Shown here piece by piece: positions 495-15,659 of a stretch of 21,702 nucleotides of DNA. The stretch lies in the IMG/VR virus record IMGVR_UViG_3300006870_000111, positions 1 to 21,702 of that record. One strand, written 5' to 3'. The stretch is from a virus. Below the pieces are notes generated by a model, which searched no databases, was not told the DNA's origin, and was given only the letters and a program-made list of their open reading frames with translations. The position numbers and the translations under genes are program-made. How positions within the stretch are numbered: position 1 is the first letter of the stretch; the number at the start of each line of letters is the position of its first letter.

Positions 495-1161
495 AGTAGT
501 TATTCGTAATAAAGAGTTGTTAAATACCCTCAACAGTTTCTCCGACGAGATGCTGTCTAAACCGTCGTATAACGACGAAAAGTATTGGACATATCACGAA
601 CGCAAGGATGTTGACTTGGGGTCTTATTACACCTCAAGTGAGTATCTGTTAGAATGTTTATCTCGTGATAGTCTGGTTGGCCCGCCCGATAGATACTTCG
701 CACAACCGATTTCCAAGATGGTTCGTGAAGACAAAGAGATGTGGGGTGGATTTATGCAGAAAGTCAAATATGACTTTGCGTCAGAACTTGGCGCACATAC
801 TTCCGCCCTACTATCTTACTATCCGCCAGGCGGGTTTGTGGGTTGGCACACCAACTATGATGCCAACGCATATCAGGTTCTATTTACATGGTCAGAGTCC
901 GGAGAAGGATTCTTTGAGTACTATGATAAACAGAACGACGAAATCATTAAAATCGACGATGTGCCCGGCTGGCAGTGTCGTCACTACTACTTTGGCGCAG
1001 AACAAGAAGAAGACTTGCACTGCTGGCACGCTGCATACACAGAGTGCCAACGCATCACACTCGCATACAAGTTTGTGAATGGTGGTAGTGTAAATAACCC
1101 AGAAGACGCACAGGCACGTGCCATGCGCGACATGTTGATTGAAGATATAGAGACTGAGTAA
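487..1161 (+). CDS. 2-oxoglutarate/Fe(II)-dependent oxygenase-like protein (224 aa)
   Basis: The jelly-roll oxygenase core lies at about residues 105-195. GWHTNYD (119-125) supplies the first metal histidine H121, W180-H181 the second, and R189 the arginine that normally binds the 2-oxoglutarate carboxylate. The family couples oxidation of 2-oxoglutarate to succinate with hydroxylation of a protein, nucleobase or small molecule; the substrate here is unknown. Oxygenases of this size are frequent in marine T4-like phages. Oddity: the position two after H121 is Asn123 rather than the usual Asp/Glu of HxD, with Asp125 two further on. The stop overlaps the iscU start (TAATG), so the two are translationally coupled. 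Confidence 0.8.
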   Translation: MTEVVIRNKELLNTLNSFSDEMLSKPSYNDEKYWTYHERKDVDLGSYYTSSEYLLECLSRDSLVGPPDRYFAQPISKMVREDKEMWGGFMQKVKYDFASELGAHTSALLSYYPPGGFVGWHTNYDANAYQVLFTWSESGEGFFEYYDKQNDEIIKIDDVPGWQCRHYYFGAEQEEDLHCWHAAYTECQRITLAYKFVNGGSVNNPEDAQARAMRDMLIEDIETE

Positions 1162-1535
1162 TGTATTCGGACAAGGTTTTAGACCACTACGAGAACCCAC
1201 GCAACGTGGGTAAGATGGACAGGGAAGACGATAATGTCGGAACTGGTATGGTGGGTGCACCCGCGTGTGGCGATGTGATGCAACTACAAATCCTTGTTGA
1301 CGAAATTGGAATCATCCAAGATGCGAAATTTAAAACTTATGGTTGTGGTAGTGCTATCGCTTCTAGTTCTCTACTCACTGAGTGGGTCAAAGGTAAAAGT
1401 CTCGAAGAAGCCGGGAATATCCGTAATACAGACATTGCAAAAGAACTCTCATTACCACCAGTAAAAATCCATTGTAGTGTACTCGCAGAGGATGCGATCA
1501 AAGCTGCTATCAAAGACTATAAAGAGAAACACTAA
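1161..1535 (+). CDS. iscU: Iron-sulfur cluster assembly scaffold IscU
   Basis: Near full-length match to bacterial IscU over all 124 residues. It has the three cluster-ligand cysteines C36 (ACGD), C62 (GCGSA) and C105 (IHCS), the conserved Asp38, and the LPPVK motif (98-102) that the HscA chaperone recognises. The scaffold receives sulfur from IscS and iron in the cytosol and hands 2Fe-2S or 4Fe-4S clusters to apoproteins. No iscS, hscA, hscB or fdx is seen here, so it would have to work with host partners. It is sandwiched between the oxygenase and the SGNH gene with one-base overlaps on both sides, so it is expressed as part of this trio. Gene identity is very secure; its benefit to the phage is inference. 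Confidence 0.97.
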   Translation: MYSDKVLDHYENPRNVGKMDREDDNVGTGMVGAPACGDVMQLQILVDEIGIIQDAKFKTYGCGSAIASSSLLTEWVKGKSLEEAGNIRNTDIAKELSLPPVKIHCSVLAEDAIKAAIKDYKEKH

Positions 1536-3847: not shown

Positions 3848-5089
3848 ATGAAAAAAAGAGATTACTCACCCGAAGACGTTCGCCGTCTTCAAGGCACCGT
3901 ACAGATTGATCACACCCTCGCAAAGATGGGTGCGACTAAGCTACGTCAACTTTTTGAAGAAAATGAATACATCAACACGTTTGGAGCATATAATGGCCAA
4001 CAAGCAGTCCAACACGTCAAAGCAGGACTCAAAGCAATCTATCTCTCCGGATGGCAAGTTGCCGCATCCGCCAACTCTCATAACGAGGTTTACCCAGATC
4101 AGTCTCTTTACGCTGTTGATAGCGTCCCTAATGTTGTCCGGTCTATCAATAATGCATTTAGACGACAAGACCAGATCGAATATCTGGAAACTGGAAACGG
4201 GTTTGAATTTGCCCCTATTATTGCCGATGCTGAAGCAGGATTCGGAGGTGTTCTAAATGCGTATGAACTTGCAAGAAATCTTATCGAAGCAGGTGCTGCC
4301 GCTGTTCACTTCGAAGACCAAGTTGCTGCCGAAAAGAAGTGCGGACACTTGGGAGGAAAGGTTCTCATACCAACTGGTCAAGCTATACGCAACCTTAATG
4401 CCGCTCGCCTTGCTAGTGACGTTGCTGGCACTGATACAGTCGTTATTGCTCGTACCGATGCTGAGTCTGCTAAGTTAATCTCCAGTAACATCTCCGACAC
4501 CGACAAACCATTCATTAAGAGAGTCGCTCAAGGATCGGGTGGTTCTATGCAATGTCGCACATCCGAAGGATTCTACATGCTCGAAGAGGGCAAGGGACTA
4601 GAGTTCGGTTGTGTGCGCGGTCAGGCCTACGCAGAATACGCAGACCTCGTTTGGTGCGAAACATCGACACCAGACTTGAAGGATGCGAAGCGTTTCGCCG
4701 ACGCAGTCAAAGGTGCAGTTCCAGACGCGATGCTCGCGTATAACTGTTCACCATCATTTAACTGGCGCAAGTCAATTCCAGGCGATCAAGAACTAAAAGA
4801 GTTCCAGAGAGAACTAGGTCGCATGGGATTCAAGTTCCAGTTTATTACACTTGCTGGTTTTCACCAGACTAACTATGCAGTCTTTGATTTTGCAAACCGA
4901 TACAAAGATGAGGGGATGTATGCTTACAGTTTACTACAAGAGGCAGAATTCGATGCAGAAGCGCGTGGATACACGGGAGCGAGACACCAAAGGGAGGTCG
5001 GCGTCGGGTATTTCGATGCGATCACGACTACTCTTGGGTCTAAGTCGACCGCGGCTATGGCAGGGTCAACCGAAGAACAGCAGTTTTAA
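3848..5089 (+). CDS. aceA: Isocitrate lyase
   Basis: Matches bacterial isocitrate lyase along its full length. Landmarks: YLSGWQVAA (65-73), YPDQSLY (82-88), ADAEAGFGG (126-134), the catalytic signature KKCGH (163-167) with Cys165, ADLVWCETSTPDL (265-277), YNCSPSFNW (298-306), GYFDAITT (387-394) and the typical C-terminal STEEQQF. The enzyme is a cytosolic Mg-dependent tetramer that splits isocitrate into succinate and glyoxylate, the first step of the glyoxylate shunt. At 413 residues it lacks about 20 N-terminal residues of the E. coli enzyme, but every active-site element is present, so it should be active. No malate synthase or kinase/phosphatase is in the window. It sits between tRNA-Glu and a fibre gene, and is followed by a hairpin. 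Phage context makes it an auxiliary metabolic gene. Confidence 0.97.
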   Translation: MKKRDYSPEDVRRLQGTVQIDHTLAKMGATKLRQLFEENEYINTFGAYNGQQAVQHVKAGLKAIYLSGWQVAASANSHNEVYPDQSLYAVDSVPNVVRSINNAFRRQDQIEYLETGNGFEFAPIIADAEAGFGGVLNAYELARNLIEAGAAAVHFEDQVAAEKKCGHLGGKVLIPTGQAIRNLNAARLASDVAGTDTVVIARTDAESAKLISSNISDTDKPFIKRVAQGSGGSMQCRTSEGFYMLEEGKGLEFGCVRGQAYAEYADLVWCETSTPDLKDAKRFADAVKGAVPDAMLAYNCSPSFNWRKSIPGDQELKEFQRELGRMGFKFQFITLAGFHQTNYAVFDFANRYKDEGMYAYSLLQEAEFDAEARGYTGARHQREVGVGYFDAITTTLGSKSTAAMAGSTEEQQF

Positions 5090-5139: not shown

Positions 5140-7122
5140 ATGTCAAATGTAGAAGCTCCTAATGTAAATGCAGATGGAGAAATAACTAATCAAGAACTCT
5201 TATCTGAACAAAGTGGGATGCCTAATATGTCAAGCACAAAAACATTTACTGTAGATACTAACATGCAGGTCAATGGAGATCTGGATGTAACTGGTACCGT
5301 CACCGCAACTTCATTCATCGGAGACGGTTCTCAACTTACAGGAATCTCTGGCGGTGGTCCGCAATCAGAGATTATCGACGGCAATGCGTTTGTTAGGATT
5401 GAAGACGGAGATCCTGACGGTGACAGTGCAGCACCAGTCAACCTTAAAATGGTTTCTATTGGCGGTACCGATTTATGGGACGTAGATGTTTCAGCTCTTA
5501 ACGATATCAATATCAGTTCCGGTGATGATATTACTATCTCAGCCGGTGATTGGATGGAACTCCAAACTCAGAATGAATTCTACATTACTTCTGGTGATAA
5601 AATCGATCTAGAAACAGATGAGTACATCGAGTTGAATGGTGATGTTTATCTCAGAGACGGTCACCCTCTACGGTTACAAGATGATTTTGCTGGTGTTAAT
5701 CCAGGCATGGAGTCGTTTGTTCAAGATTTATCTGCAGCGTCTTCTACCCAAGTGCCTTCTTCTATTGCAGTGAAATCTGTTACAGACGACCTTCAATCTC
5801 AAATCAATAATTTTTCTGGTGGCGGCGGACTAGACTCTGCTGGTGTTACTGCATTAATCAACGAACCATATCTCAGGGATACGTTGTACGATGTTGCGAC
5901 AGCTCAAACAAATATCGGATTAGACGCTGGTTTCGCATCAACTTCTAACTTCAGTATTGCAATCGGTAAAGAGTCTGGTATCAATAGCGGAAACGCAACC
6001 AATAGTATCGCTCTAGGATTTAAAGCGGGACAAAGTATCAGCGATAATTCTATCATGATCGGTAGAGAAACTGGTGAGGTGGGTGCAAGTTCTTACTCTG
6101 TCGGTATCGGTACAGAAGCATTAGGTATTAATGCTGGGGCAGGATCTGTTGCAATCGGATATTTTGCATCTAAAAGTTCTGCTGGATCAAATTCAGTTGC
6201 GGTCGGACGACAAACGTCTGCAACCGGCGATAACGCTATCGCCATTGGTAATACTGTCACCGCAACTACTGCCGATGCAGTAACTATCGGATCGTCTGTT
6301 GCTGGAAGAATGACATACGACACTACAAACGATTGGACGTTTGGTGCTGCAGTGACTGCGCCAGCATTCGTTGGTGATGGTTCTGGTTTGACTGGTCTTC
6401 CGTCCGGTGGCGGTCTAGACTCTGCGGCAACAATCGATCTAATCGGAATGCAGAATAAACCTGCAGGCGACAACTCTATTCAGATAACTCCAGACACGTC
6501 AACATTGAACGGAGACAATAACAATATCATCATCGGTACTCAGATCAGCGACATGGCGGGTATCGGACCACAATCAGTTGCTATGGGTTATGATATTGGT
6601 GCACAGGCAAACGGTGTCTCAATTGGGTATCAGGCAGGTGCTGGTTCGCAGTCTACTAATTCCGGCGGCGTATTCATTGGTTCACGTACAAACTACTTTG
6701 GAAACTCAAATCCGGCAGATTATGCGATTGCAATTGGTCATGAAGCAGGTGCGGTTTATCCTGGCGTAGGTTCGATTGCATTAGGTAAGGACGCTGGTAA
6801 AGGAAGTTCTGGTGACTATACAGTTGCGATAGGATATAACGCAAACAACACGTCCAATTTTAATAACACCATTATGATTAAAGCTGATGGTACTAGTGCA
6901 TACAATTCTACTGCTCAGTATGATATTGATATCCGCACTTCTGCTGCTGGTTCGTTGTCATACAACACTACAAACGATTGGACGTTTGGTGCTGGTGTCA
7001 CGATGACAGATCTTACTGCGAGCGGCGCAACAGTCGTATTCAGTAACTTACCTACAACCGACCCAGTAAATGCGGGTCAACTTTGGAATGATAACGGGAC
7101 ATTGAAAGTCTCTGCAGGATAA
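5140..7122 (+). CDS. Tail-fibre-like protein with YadA-head-type repeats (660 aa)
   Basis: The N-terminal 60 residues are polar; then GDGSQLTGISGGG (61-73) marks a fibre hinge seen again as GDGSGLTGLPSGGG near residue 414. Two blocks of about eight short repeats of the type SIAIG / SVAVG / NAIAIG, roughly residues 272-385 and 460-580, match the left-handed beta-roll head of trimeric autotransporters (YadA/Hep_Hag). Both blocks end in a YxTTNDWTFGA module. The C terminus (DPVNAGQLWNDNGTLKVSAG) is a common phage fibre ending. It is likely a homotrimeric virion fibre or appendage that contacts the host surface. The ribosome site AAGGA is 8 bases upstream. No chaperone domain is seen. Confidence 0.75.
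   Translation: MSNVEAPNVNADGEITNQELLSEQSGMPNMSSTKTFTVDTNMQVNGDLDVTGTVTATSFIGDGSQLTGISGGGPQSEIIDGNAFVRIEDGDPDGDSAAPVNLKMVSIGGTDLWDVDVSALNDINISSGDDITISAGDWMELQTQNEFYITSGDKIDLETDEYIELNGDVYLRDGHPLRLQDDFAGVNPGMESFVQDLSAASSTQVPSSIAVKSVTDDLQSQINNFSGGGGLDSAGVTALINEPYLRDTLYDVATAQTNIGLDAGFASTSNFSIAIGKESGINSGNATNSIALGFKAGQSISDNSIMIGRETGEVGASSYSVGIGTEALGINAGAGSVAIGYFASKSSAGSNSVAVGRQTSATGDNAIAIGNTVTATTADAVTIGSSVAGRMTYDTTNDWTFGAAVTAPAFVGDGSGLTGLPSGGGLDSAATIDLIGMQNKPAGDNSIQITPDTSTLNGDNNNIIIGTQISDMAGIGPQSVAMGYDIGAQANGVSIGYQAGAGSQSTNSGGVFIGSRTNYFGNSNPADYAIAIGHEAGAVYPGVGSIALGKDAGKGSSGDYTVAIGYNANNTSNFNNTIMIKADGTSAYNSTAQYDIDIRTSAAGSLSYNTTNDWTFGAGVTMTDLTASGATVVFSNLPTTDPVNAGQLWNDNGTLKVSAG
6321..6349 (+). repeat. 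29-bp direct repeat, copy 1 (in fibre gene)
   Basis: Identical to bases 6966-6994. It encodes the TTNDWTFGA module closing the first beta-roll block. Confidence 0.85.
6966..6994 (+). repeat. 29-bp direct repeat, copy 2 (in fibre gene)
   Basis: Identical to bases 6321-6349 and in the same frame, 645 bases downstream, so recombination between the copies would delete 215 codons in frame. Confidence 0.85.
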
Positions 7123-7735: not shown

Positions 7736-8102
7736 GATAGTCTATAGGGAAGAATCTCAATCAATCTTTCCTTGGAAGTCTCATTTTCGTGGTGTTGTAT
7801 TGTGGCCGTATGTGATCATGCGACCAAAGAAATATGCAACAGGATCAGTCGCACAGTCTGAGTTAATGACACGACGTTCACTCGTAAAGTTATATCGACA
7901 CGAGTTGCAACACTGCTATCAGATTAAACGAATGGGTATAATCAAGTTCTATGTACGATATGTCTGGTTGAACTTTCTGAAGGGTTATAAAAATCATCCC
8001 GACGAATTAGAAGCGAGACAGTACGAGAACGAGAAGTTGACTCAACTTGAAGAAAAATGGCTCCATGATGGGGTCATAGATTTGTCAGAGATGGAGGATT
8101 AA
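7725..8102 (+). CDS. HExxH putative zinc metallopeptidase-like protein (125 aa)
   Basis: A zinc-binding HELQH motif (59-63) lies in a helix (LVKLYRHELQHCYQIKRMG), and a PDELEARQYE stretch (92-101) supplies a likely third ligand Glu. This spacing resembles small SprT-like or gluzincin metallopeptidase domains, and short phage proteins of this kind are common. There is no signal peptide, so it is cytosolic or virion-borne. A strong ribosome site (GGGGGAAGG) precedes the ATG, and its stop overlaps the peroxiredoxin start (TAATG). Proteolytic activity is not shown; the protein lacks most of a full peptidase fold. Confidence 0.55.
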   Translation: MKFKIVYREESQSIFPWKSHFRGVVLWPYVIMRPKKYATGSVAQSELMTRRSLVKLYRHELQHCYQIKRMGIIKFYVRYVWLNFLKGYKNHPDELEARQYENEKLTQLEEKWLHDGVIDLSEMED

Positions 8103-8695
8103 TGACAGATAATGATGATCGGTGGATGAAAATCACCGGAGCGAAAGTGGGCGACACGTTGCCCGAAGCAACATTTCAGACACGAGTGCGTGATGAAAGT
8201 ATTGAGGGACCTAACCCATATCGTTGGGAAGAGACTACGATGGCAGACTATACGGCAGGTCGTCGTGTTGTAATCTTCTCACTGCCAGGCGCATTCACGC
8301 CAACATGTTCTACGATGCAGTTACCAACATTCGAAGAGAAGTTTGATCAGTTTGTTGATCTAGGTATTGACGACATCTATTGCATGTCGGTAAACGATTC
8401 TTTCGTGATGAACGCATGGGCGCGAGATCAAGAACTCAAGCGAGTCAAGGTGATTCCAGACGGATCTGGTCACTTCACACGTTCGATGGGAATGCTTGTC
8501 GATAAAGACAATCTAGGGTTCGGACACCGTTCTTGGCGTTATGCGATGGTCGTCACCGATGGTGTGATCGAGGCATTGTTCCGTGAAGCAAGTATCCGAG
8601 ATAATGCGGAAGATGATCCGTATGAGATGACCACCCCTGAAAACATACTTGGGTATTTGCGCAACGCAATCCCACAAGAAGAAGAGGTGGCCTAA
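8102..8695 (+). CDS. Peroxiredoxin, Prx5-like (197 aa)
   Basis: Thioredoxin-fold peroxidase. PGAFTPTCS (62-70) carries the peroxidatic Cys69 with the Pro/Thr residues of the PxxxTxxC signature; SVNDSFVMNAWA (96-107) and GHRSWRYAMVV (141-151), with the conserved Arg146, match the Prx5/AHP subfamily. It reduces hydrogen peroxide or organic peroxides in the cytosol using host thioredoxin, glutaredoxin or glutathione. Cys94 is another cysteine that might resolve, though its position is not the standard one. An N-terminal insert of about 20 residues (28-48) is longer than usual. It starts on the stop of the HExxH gene and ends at a strong terminator. An auxiliary metabolic gene in this phage setting. 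Confidence 0.92.
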   Translation: MTDNDDRWMKITGAKVGDTLPEATFQTRVRDESIEGPNPYRWEETTMADYTAGRRVVIFSLPGAFTPTCSTMQLPTFEEKFDQFVDLGIDDIYCMSVNDSFVMNAWARDQELKRVKVIPDGSGHFTRSMGMLVDKDNLGFGHRSWRYAMVVTDGVIEALFREASIRDNAEDDPYEMTTPENILGYLRNAIPQEEEVA

Positions 8696-9356: not shown

Positions 9357-10163
9357 ATGTCTTATATAAATGATGGATCTATGGATCGTGAGGGTCGAAA
9401 GTTCGAATGTCAAGTGGAAGACCGTTTGAATACGTGTGTTGAAAGTCAAAAACAATGGCTTGGTCGCGAATTGAAAGAAAATGAAATCGCACAACATGTT
9501 GGCGGTTCAAATGGTCATTCTGATGTAAACATCATCAAACAGGATACTAGAGAGGTCGTCTCCCAGATTTCGGTGAAACGTAAAAAGAAAATCGGAAAAG
9601 GTGATGGCGGTATAACATACAAAAATTTTATGTTTGGTAATCACATTACAGATGATAAATCGTTGAAACAGTCTTTTGAGGATTGTGTTACTTGGGCTAA
9701 GTATGCTCGGGATCGATTCGAAAATGGCACACCTAAATCCAAAATCCAAAATGAACAAAAACAATTATCAAATCATATCCTACGTCAAATTTCCAACAAA
9801 ACACTAAAGGAATTGATTCAATCGACAATCGTAGATCGCGATTCTGATACTGATACCTACTTTGTGTTCGGAAATGAAGATTGGTCTGTAGAAGAATCTA
9901 TCGCGTATTCTAATATTCCTATCGTGCGTGATTGGAACAAAGTTCGTAGAGTAGAATTGAAACTCGGCAAATCGAATACTGCGCAATCATGCAAGGTCAA
10001 CTTCATTATGGAAGACGGCCGTGTTGTGGATTACGGTTTGCGTATTCGTGTCCACACTAACAATGGTATCGGTGCATTAGTAGGTATTTCGAAATCTAAT
10101 AAATCATCATATTGGTGTATGAAGTTTCAGCAAGATACTGTTTATTCTATGTTAACTATGTAA
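9357..10163 (+). CDS. Putative type II restriction endonuclease, PD-(D/E)XK-like (268 aa)
   Basis: No family match is certain, but residues 50-76 hold a nuclease-like core: HSDVNI (54-59, Asp56), a turn, then the strand QISVKRKKK (70-78) giving the D-x(n)-SxK pattern of PD-(D/E)XK enzymes; a helix with Glu17 and Glu21 precedes it, as these folds often show. The C-terminal half (VELKLGKSNTA, then a beta-rich region) may recognise DNA. It lies 11 bases before a DNA methyltransferase under one perfect promoter, the usual layout of a restriction-modification pair. Both genes are clearly AT-richer than their neighbours, which suggests acquisition as a unit. It could instead be a non-cleaving DNA-binding partner. 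Confidence 0.55.
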   Translation: MSYINDGSMDREGRKFECQVEDRLNTCVESQKQWLGRELKENEIAQHVGGSNGHSDVNIIKQDTREVVSQISVKRKKKIGKGDGGITYKNFMFGNHITDDKSLKQSFEDCVTWAKYARDRFENGTPKSKIQNEQKQLSNHILRQISNKTLKELIQSTIVDRDSDTDTYFVFGNEDWSVEESIAYSNIPIVRDWNKVRRVELKLGKSNTAQSCKVNFIMEDGRVVDYGLRIRVHTNNGIGALVGISKSNKSSYWCMKFQQDTVYSMLTM

Positions 10164-10174
10164 TAAGGTTTTGA

Positions 10175-11227
10175 ATGTCTAACTACTATTATGTACTGGA
10201 ACGCGATGCGTCCGATATGTGCAACCTTAAAGTTGCACCTAAACTGATTTACATTGACCCGCCTTTTGGGCTGAACAAAAATTTCAAGATGAAAGAAGAC
10301 AATGGTTCAGAAAAAGGGTTTGGTGATAATTGGGACAGTCAAGAAGATTTTTTGAATTGGTATTCTGACATCATTGAAAAATGTTACATGGTGTTGGACA
10401 AAAATGGGTTTCTGTACTGCCATAACAACTTCATTATGAATGCTTTGGTATTGTCCAAACTGTCTATCAGTTCAAAATTAGATACTAACATATCATGGAG
10501 ACGTTCACATCCTCACAATAATATTAAGAATGGGTGGGGCAACATTGTAGATAGTATTCTAGTTTTTAAAAAGGGATCTCCTAGATTCAATGTACAATAT
10601 TCAGAATTAGATGAGACGTACAAGAACAATAGTTTTGGTAATATTGACGAACGAGGGAATTATTCTCTTGCACCAATTACGGGAGAGAAAAGTAGACCCG
10701 GCCATATGTTTGAATTCGGCGGCTTCAATCCAAAGTTTGGTTGGAGGAAACCGATGAAAGAGATTCAAAAACTAGATGAACAAAATCTTATACACTATGG
10801 TAAAAATAAACCATACAAAAAGATGTATCTCGAAGACTCGAAAGGACCACCGATTCAAAATTTCTGGGACGACATACACTCAGTCACTAGGACCGAAAAA
10901 CAAAAAAGGGAGTACCCAACACAAAAACCGATTGGATTGCTAGAGAGGATTATAGAATCTAGTTCTCAAGTAGGCGATTTGGTATTCGATCCATTTTGTG
11001 GTTCGGGTACTACATTATTAGCAAGCAATAATCTAAGAAGGTCTTGTATTACTTCAGACTTAAACTTAGATGCTCTCGACATTGCTGTAGGGCGTCTTAA
11101 TGCTCAAGGCGCGGCCGTAAATACGGATGTTAAAAACATCTGGGAAGACGATAACAGATCATTTGTAGACAACAAGATTTTGTCCAAACCAAAATCTAAT
11201 CTTGAGGAGTTTATGTATGTCTCCTAA
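10175..11227 (+). CDS. DNA methyltransferase, N4-cytosine/N6-adenine beta class (350 aa)
   Basis: Catalytic motif IV DPPFG (28-32) comes first and the AdoMet-binding motif DPFCGSGTT (272-280) comes last, preceded by YPTQKP (247-252). This is the order of the beta class, which methylates adenine N6 or cytosine N4 in duplex DNA. The middle (about 110-245) is the target-recognition part, so specificity cannot be read from sequence. Close spacing after the putative nuclease and shared AT-rich composition suggest a restriction-modification pair; alternatively it protects phage DNA from host restriction. The final codons contain the ribosome site for the next gene, which overlaps by 11 bases. Confidence 0.93.
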   Translation: MSNYYYVLERDASDMCNLKVAPKLIYIDPPFGLNKNFKMKEDNGSEKGFGDNWDSQEDFLNWYSDIIEKCYMVLDKNGFLYCHNNFIMNALVLSKLSISSKLDTNISWRRSHPHNNIKNGWGNIVDSILVFKKGSPRFNVQYSELDETYKNNSFGNIDERGNYSLAPITGEKSRPGHMFEFGGFNPKFGWRKPMKEIQKLDEQNLIHYGKNKPYKKMYLEDSKGPPIQNFWDDIHSVTRTEKQKREYPTQKPIGLLERIIESSSQVGDLVFDPFCGSGTTLLASNNLRRSCITSDLNLDALDIAVGRLNAQGAAVNTDVKNIWEDDNRSFVDNKILSKPKSNLEEFMYVS

Positions 11228-14077: not shown

Positions 14078-14107
14078 TTGACACCTGTCTATAAACTGTA
14101 GTATACT
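14078..14107 (+). promoter_or_regulatory. Sigma70-type promoter for cytochrome c peroxidase
   Basis: TTGACA (14078-14083), 18-base spacer, TATACT (14102-14107). The leader then contains a hairpin carrying the ribosome site. Confidence 0.75.
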
Positions 14108-14151: not shown

Positions 14152-15564
14152 ATGAAGAAACTACTAACTGTAGCTGTGTCTACGGCACTCCTGAGTGCAT
14201 GTTCTGGCGGAGCAGATAACGCATCCGCCCCCGACCCTGTGGTCGTAACTCCCCCAACCGTAACCCCTGTTGATCCTGCAGTCGAGGCACGTGACAATCT
14301 ACTCACGTTACTTGACTCAACATCAACGACAGGTTCATACGAAGAATACATCCTGCCCGACAGCGATGACTTCGACAACATTCCGCAAGATCCAAGCAAC
14401 CCTATTACTGCAGAGAAAGTTGCGCTCGGTCAGTTAGTCTATCATGAGACTGGCATCACCGATGGCAATATCTCTGGCATGGACGGGACATTCTCGTGCG
14501 CATCATGTCACAACGCACAGAACGGATTCAAGTCTGGTATTCGTCAGGGTATTGGTGAAGGTGGTATCGGTTTTGATCATCGTATGATTGCTGAGGGTGT
14601 CAATCCCGAAGACATCGATGTGCAACCCGTCACATCACCCACTGTACTCAACACGGCATTCCAAGAAGTAATGTTGTGGAATGGTCAGTTCGGTAATGTC
14701 ATAGGTGGTGTTGTCAATGTCGGCATTGACGAAGATCGTCACTTCACAGAAGGCACTCCCAAAGAAGCAAATCTGCGTAACTTCGCTGGTCTAGAGACAC
14801 AAGCAGTTGCGGGTCTAGGTGTGCATCGTATGGGCGACACCGATAATTCTATTCTGCGCACCAACGAAACTTATCGTGAGATGTATGAAGCTGCGTACGG
14901 TGTTGCAGAACCCGACGATATGTTAGAGGCAACTGCACTTGCGATTGCCGCATACGAACGAACCATTCTTGCGAACCAAGCACCCTTCCAAGCATACTTG
15001 AAAGGCGACGAAACTGCGATGACTGAATCTGAAGTCGCTGGTGCAGAAGTGTTCTTCGGTAAGGGTAACTGTTATGCTTGTCATAACGGACCTGCGTTGT
15101 CGTCTCCGGTTGGTGCCATGGCAGACGAAGTGTTCATGACTGTCGGTTTCCACGATCTAGACATCTGGGAAGACACGGTCGGTGAAGTCAACGATGCGAC
15201 TAGAGAGGGTCGCGGCGGATTCACTGGCGACGAACTTGACCGATTCAAGTTCAAAGTTCCACCTCTTTACAACCTTATAGATACTACTGTATTCGGTCAC
15301 GGTGCGTCATTCTCTAGTGTAGAAGATGTCGTGCGATACAAGGTGGCTGCGGTTCCACAACACCCACAAGTGGAAACGTATGACCTTGACTATCGGTTCA
15401 CTCCGTTAGACTTGACCGAAGACGAGATCACAAACCTTGTTGCTTTTCTTGAGAACAGTTTGTATGATCCAGAGTTGATGCGATATGTGCCAGAGTCGTT
15501 ACCAAGCGGCAACTGTCCTGTCAACAATGATGAGGTGTCACGCCAAGAACTTGGGTGTGACTGA
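14152..15564 (+). CDS. Di-heme cytochrome c peroxidase (CcpA/MauG family) lipoprotein (470 aa)
   Basis: Lipoprotein signal with lipobox LSAC (Cys17), then a Pro/Val-rich linker to about residue 45. Two heme c sites: CASCH (116-120) and CYACH (307-311). Between them TALAIAAYERTILANQAPFQ (261-280) and after them KVPPLYNL plus FGHGASFSS (368-389) and LTEDEITNLVAFL (421-433) are the usual CCP_MauG landmarks. The family reduces hydrogen peroxide in the periplasm with electrons from host cytochrome c or cupredoxin; some members oxidise other targets. Both hemes need the host Ccm system. At 470 residues it is longer than classical enzymes (about 320-350), mainly from the linker and loops. It has its own strong promoter. 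Highly unexpected cargo for a phage; the family is certain, the substrate is not. Confidence 0.93.
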   Translation: MKKLLTVAVSTALLSACSGGADNASAPDPVVVTPPTVTPVDPAVEARDNLLTLLDSTSTTGSYEEYILPDSDDFDNIPQDPSNPITAEKVALGQLVYHETGITDGNISGMDGTFSCASCHNAQNGFKSGIRQGIGEGGIGFDHRMIAEGVNPEDIDVQPVTSPTVLNTAFQEVMLWNGQFGNVIGGVVNVGIDEDRHFTEGTPKEANLRNFAGLETQAVAGLGVHRMGDTDNSILRTNETYREMYEAAYGVAEPDDMLEATALAIAAYERTILANQAPFQAYLKGDETAMTESEVAGAEVFFGKGNCYACHNGPALSSPVGAMADEVFMTVGFHDLDIWEDTVGEVNDATREGRGGFTGDELDRFKFKVPPLYNLIDTTVFGHGASFSSVEDVVRYKVAAVPQHPQVETYDLDYRFTPLDLTEDEITNLVAFLENSLYDPELMRYVPESLPSGNCPVNNDEVSRQELGCD

Positions 15565-15583: not shown

Positions 15584-15659
15584 GGGGCTATAGCTCAGTT
15601 GGGAGAGCGCTTGATTTGCATTCAAGAGGTCGTGGGTTCGACTCCCTCTAGCTCCACCA
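15584..15659 (+). tRNA. tRNA-Ala (anticodon TGC)
   Basis: Acceptor GGGGCTA/TAGCTCC, anticodon stem CTTGA/TCAAG with loop TTTGCAT, encoded CCA. Confidence 0.95.

Follow-up and report, generated by a model that had tools for sequence, protein, structure and literature searches.

The closest described relatives of the protein reported here are the classical bCCPs, such as 6fu3, 2vhd, 2c1v, 1iqc and 3o5c, and the enzymes MauG, MbnH and BthA. In bCCP, MauG and BthA alike, the distal pocket contains conserved Gln, Pro and Glu residues, of which the Glu is needed for activity (PMC6405878, PMC10094543). The E277Q substitution in BthA abolished peroxidase activity (PMC6405878), and the equivalent variants of bCCP are inactive (PMC10094543). 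The N. gonorrhoeae bCCP carries a lipid-modified N-terminal Cys (PMC10094543), as is predicted for the protein described here. Phage auxiliary metabolic genes, for example viral isocitrate lyase and malate synthase (PMC4053976), are likewise host-derived and kept by marine phages.

The fold and the superfamily are already known, and the viral member is new within PHROGs, BFVD and the open-access papers searched. PHROGs lacks any viral protein with a di-heme c-type peroxidase fold, a BFVD search at E 0.001 found none, and the open-access papers searched describe no such protein and contain nothing on the related phage C48C1. In one study, on sulfate reducers, the terms cytochrome c peroxidase, auxiliary metabolic gene and phage all occur, a single time each.

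Results

The window, meaning the whole stretch of DNA that was analysed (21,702 nucleotides), is IMG/VR virus record IMGVR_UViG_3300006870_000111. An open reading frame with an ATG start at 14152-15564 on the plus strand encodes a protein of 470 aa that matches Pfam PF03150 (CCP_MauG) with 83 bits (cut-off 25.6, E 4e-23). The features of the locus are as follows.

14078..14107, plus strand: predicted sigma70-type promoter, TTGACA (14078-14083), 18 bp spacer, TATACT (14102-14107)
14152..15564, plus strand: gene for a di-heme CCP_MauG-fold lipoprotein, 470 aa (Pfam PF03150, AlphaFold2 model, VIA structural matches)
14152..14202, plus strand: signal peptide and lipobox LLSAC, with Cys17 predicted to be lipidated and Ser at +2
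14497..14511, plus strand: heme 1 (peroxidatic) motif CASCH, residues 116-120
14677..14679, plus strand: inter-heme Trp176, equivalent of the charge-hopping Trp98 in N. gonorrhoeae bCCP
14695..14787, plus strand: insert specific to the subfamily (about residues 182-212), lying after Trp176 and before the distal helix; not in canonical bCCPs in the alignment
14800..14832, plus strand: altered distal pocket QAVAGLGVHRM, residues 217-227, by bridged alignment
15070..15084, plus strand: heme 2 (electron-transfer) motif CYACH, residues 307-311
15337..15342, plus strand: Tyr396-Lys397 at the axial-ligand column of the alignment
15508..15561, plus strand: subfamily C-terminal tail with Cys455 and Cys469
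15584..15659, plus strand: tRNA-Ala directly 3' of the gene, as in phage C48C1

The initial annotation read this gene as a phage-encoded di-heme cytochrome c peroxidase lipoprotein with two CxxCH motifs, a lipobox, CCP_MauG landmarks and its own promoter. The two motifs and the lipobox were both confirmed. Shuffling the protein 20,000 times never produced two CxxCH motifs (0/20,000), which excludes chance from composition. The lipobox is present in 50/50 viral sequences examined, and is followed by Ser (37) or Gly (13). In gammaproteobacteria, Ser at +2 predicts sorting to the outer membrane. The cysteines of the window protein are Cys17, the four heme cysteines, Cys455 and Cys469, with no others, and each has an apparent role: Cys17 in lipid attachment, four in heme binding, and the last two in what is probably a disulfide. 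PADLOC gave no match for the protein.

The promoter stood up as well. TTGACA-TATAaT elements are kept in 14 of 16 aligned viral upstream regions, while the spacer sequence is variable; loci L029 and L032 have an upstream tRNA gene in place of the promoter. This conservation suggests early transcription by the host sigma70 RNA polymerase. When the window copy was compared in pairs with other viral copies, dN/dS was 0.07-0.14; the gene is therefore under purifying selection and maintained in phages.

The AlphaFold2 (AF2) model of the window protein (pLDDT 88.8, pTM 0.87) has the two-domain di-heme fold of the bCCPs, and the structural match spans residues 45-453, covering two cytochrome domains. 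VIA scores were Z 28.7-30.3 against the five classical bCCPs named above, with 6fu3, an active form, at 30.3. Among bCCP states, the active mixed-valence forms scored about 30 and the oxidised forms 24-25. The MauG-like structure 6e1c scored 30.2, MauG 27.4 and BthA 22.9.

Conservation was assessed in a 118-sequence set from Bacteroidota, Gammaproteobacteria, Cyanobacteria and phages; these are not 118 independent observations, since near-identical viral copies are included. Both CxxCH motifs, with every Cys and His, are present in 118/118, Trp176 in 117/118 and Gln217 in 111/118. The two tail cysteines are nearly as constant (Cys455 in 111/118, Cys469 in 112/118).

The distal pocket was aligned with the help of Porticoccaceae bCCP-type paralogues as bridging sequences. 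In this bridged alignment, the canonical LEEQAxxPxxxxxEM pairs with LETQAVAGLGVHRM of the window protein. Gln217 is kept, the Pro has become Gly221, and the Glu column is occupied by Arg226 (112/118, Lys in 4), adjoining His225 (118/118). A first MAFFT register had placed the catalytic Glu at Glu215; it was replaced because the bridging bCCPs match LEEQA with LETQA. At the axial column, where bCCP has Met and MauG and BthA have Tyr, 103/118 sequences have Lys (Lys397) and the others Phe or Leu. The adjacent Tyr396 was set aside as an axial ligand, since the ungapped alignment places Lys397 in that column and Tyr396 is Phe in three sequences. On the P-heme loop, 114/118 sequences have Glu or Asp (E136 in the window protein) where the classical distal His would lie.

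The CCP_MauG landmarks of the initial annotation thus stand in part: the heme motifs, Trp176 and Gln217 are present, and the catalytic Glu and the Met or Tyr axial ligand are missing. Compared with classical bCCP, which shares both CxxCH motifs, the inter-heme Trp and the distal Gln, the phage protein lacks the distal Glu that accompanies the Gln at the peroxidatic heme, the Met of His/Met ligation at the electron-transfer heme and the P-heme loop His; it also has two inserts and a Cys-bearing tail. MauG, MbnH and BthA share the fold and an axial residue other than Met. The phage protein differs from these enzymes in having Lys397, preceded by Tyr396, in the Tyr column, in two of the three distal Gln-Pro-Glu residues, and in lacking a recurrent partner gene. 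The best NCBIfam matches are the MauG/MbnH-like models TIGR03981, TIGR04039 and TIGR03791, each far below its cut-off; the MbnH model TIGR04039 scored 109 bits (equivalog cut-off 362.85) and the MauG model TIGR03791 scored 88 bits (443.85). Because the protein fails defining features that were tested for classical bCCP, MauG and MbnH, it is filed only as a member of the CCP_MauG superfamily. As for the name cytochrome c peroxidase, the di-heme CCP_MauG fold holds and peroxidase activity is not settled; without the distal Glu and a Met or Tyr sixth ligand, peroxide turnover cannot be read from the family name.

A viral scan found 32 loci with the gene; another scan, which used DUF6267, contributed eight further contigs, some just 51-53% identical. 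In the resulting set of about 40 IMG/VR contigs, phage genes and tRNAs flank the gene. The complete 156 kb phage C48C1 has it at the matching place with 80% identity, annotated as "hypothetical". The more distant phages with the gene include L212, L216-L218 and L222-L224. The neighbours in the window (exonuclease, DUF6267, peroxiredoxin, IscU and tRNAs) fit T4-like marine phages. All 21 contigs in the comparison set with an exonuclease identity of at least 83% carry the gene. It is also present at five further loci where this identity is 70-71%, and missing from four neighbours at 67-79%. Within one clade of marine T4-like phages it is therefore a core gene, gained or lost at the margin of that clade. 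It lies in genuine phage genomes and is maintained by selection, as an auxiliary gene should be. The heme motifs, the lipobox, the PF03150 match and these independent genomes together support a virus-encoded di-heme CCP_MauG-fold lipoprotein.

The window contains other genes of note. A full-length isocitrate lyase is encoded at 3848-5089 (plus strand; NF011645, 618 bits versus a cut-off of 562; KKCGH signature); it is 91-99% identical among phages that carry the peroxidase-fold gene and so is more conserved than that gene. No malate synthase is annotated in C48C1. Adjoining the isocitrate lyase, 5140-7122 (plus strand) encodes a 660 aa protein with YadA-head repeats, a possible tail or adhesin protein, with only partial similarity between relatives. 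An IscU Fe-S scaffold lies at 1161-1535 (plus strand; TIGR01999 above cut-off, 90% identical in C48C1), and a peroxiredoxin (phrog_2281) at 8102-8695 (plus strand). At 9357-11227 (plus strand) lie two low-GC (37%) genes: the first is a 268 aa ORF that matches no family, and the second encodes an N6/N4 DNA methyltransferase. They may form a restriction-modification pair; C48C1 has other genes at this site.

In a scan of bacterial genomes, relatives were found mostly in Bacteroidota, with a few in Gammaproteobacteria and Cyanobacteria. Those from Porticoccaceae, Alteromonadaceae, Granulosicoccaceae, Bacteroidota and Cyanobacteria are 40-56% identical to the phage protein and have the inserts, the tail, His225/Arg226 and Tyr396 in common with it over the full length; they differ in being chromosomal or plasmid genes without phage context. 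A quick tree placed 18 viral copies in one clade. In a careful tree that included the more distant phages, viral monophyly had a support of 92/64, and the viral proteins grouped with a homologue from Porticoccaceae (Gammaproteobacteria) with a support of 99/98, the whole nested inside the mainly Bacteroidota subfamily. The phylogeny, which the initial annotation had proposed for finding the donor clade, thus points to a donor that was probably gammaproteobacterial. The homologue is rare in Porticoccaceae (2/112 genomes) and in the order (3/390 at E 1e-60).

The initial annotation also held that the enzyme depends on heme maturation by the host. This is supported indirectly, in that the genomes with the closest cellular homologues encode cytochrome c assembly genes. 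DUF6267, a marker of the phage group, is absent from 389/390 genomes of the Porticoccaceae order, the remaining one giving a trivial match. The identity of the isocitrate lyase to gammaproteobacterial sequences is flat (54-62%) and gives no pointer to a host. No recurrent partner gene was found beside the cellular homologues apart from plain Flavobacteriaceae synteny, as expected for a stand-alone enzyme. The Flavobacteriaceae homologues concerned (L044, L050-L052, L060, L069, L082 and L083) lie in a conserved block with 2-oxoglutarate dehydrogenase and ExbB/ExbD-like genes.

Discussion

The likeliest role of the protein is the removal of peroxide in the cell envelope during infection, by an early-expressed redox enzyme that would use heme and electrons of the host. 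We hold this proposal with middling confidence, and no higher, since without the Glu the substrate is uncertain. It is favoured by the CCP_MauG match, by the well-kept heme motifs, Trp176 and Gln217, by the AF2 model, which is closest to the mixed-valence active bCCPs, and by the peroxiredoxin (phrog_2281) that many of these phages also encode. Against it count the absence of the catalytic Glu, best NCBIfam scores that are MauG/MbnH-like, and the absence of the peroxiredoxin from some of the contigs that carry the gene and cover that area. Such a role agrees with a redox theme among other genes of these phages (peroxiredoxin, IscU, isocitrate lyase).

The following sequence of events is proposed for peroxide removal. 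The gene would have been acquired from a gammaproteobacterium as an auxiliary gene and retained by one clade of marine T4-like phages. It would probably be transcribed early by the host sigma70 RNA polymerase. The product would be exported by Sec, lipidated and sorted to the outer membrane, facing the periplasm; outer-membrane sorting is expected since Ser or Gly follows the Cys in every viral copy examined. There the protein would receive two c-type hemes from the Ccm machinery of the host. Electrons from a periplasmic donor of the host would enter at heme 2, and peroxide would be reduced at heme 1, where His225/Arg226 may serve the distal chemistry in place of the usual Glu. Heme 1 may have no need for reductive activation, because Glu or Asp (Glu136 here) stands at the loop position where the classical His ligand lies. 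The envelope of the infected cell would thereby be protected, alongside the phage's cytosolic peroxiredoxin.

It is unlikely, yet deserves serious weight, that the protein is a di-heme enzyme with chemistry so far undescribed. It departs from characterised members in its distal pocket, at the axial position, and through two inserts and the C-terminal tail, and the swaps hold throughout the subfamily, from Bacteroidota, Gammaproteobacteria and Cyanobacteria to phages. However, Gln217, Trp176, both heme motifs and the overall fold are retained.

A slightly less probable reading is a MauG/MbnH-like enzyme: with peroxide or O2 it would oxidise residues in a receptor or an envelope protein and so alter the host surface, for example to exclude later phages. 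The identity of the best NCBIfam models, an axial ligand other than Met, a match to 6e1c equal to that to bCCPs, the predicted lipid anchor at the outer membrane and the early-type promoter are all consistent with such a role. However, all three models score far under their cut-offs, a substrate-like partner gene was not found beside the phage or cellular genes, the Tyr ligand of MauG and BthA is replaced by Lys397, and dependence on the distal Glu holds for MauG too. More speculative again is the idea that new oxidation chemistry on the host envelope arises from a distal His/Arg pair of the kind found in plant-type heme peroxidases, standing in for Glu, together with Lys for the axial Met or Tyr.

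It is rather improbable that the protein is chiefly an electron sink that draws electrons from periplasmic cytochromes and changes respiration during infection, with reduction of peroxide or O2 secondary. The two-heme electron-transfer layout with its nearly invariant Trp176 would suit this function, and the isocitrate lyase and IscU of the same phages touch central and respiratory metabolism; but one heme protein is a minor sink compared with the respiratory chain, and the link to isocitrate lyase is co-occurrence only. Finally, an artefact in which bacterial sequence was misassembled or misbinned with a virus, the assembly chimerism of which the initial annotation had warned, can be dismissed: the closest cellular relative does come from a bacterial genome bin, but the viral copies form their own clade and independent phage genomes, C48C1 and about 40 contigs, share the gene among phage genes and tRNAs.

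The di-heme subfamily is widespread in Bacteroidota, Gammaproteobacteria and Cyanobacteria; a characterised member was not found in this analysis. By alignment, its distal pocket departs from the pattern described for bCCP, MauG and BthA. The presence of a member in marine T4-like phages widens the range of phage auxiliary genes to include envelope-anchored redox enzymes with covalent heme, as this one is predicted to be, that would depend on cytochrome c maturation by the host.
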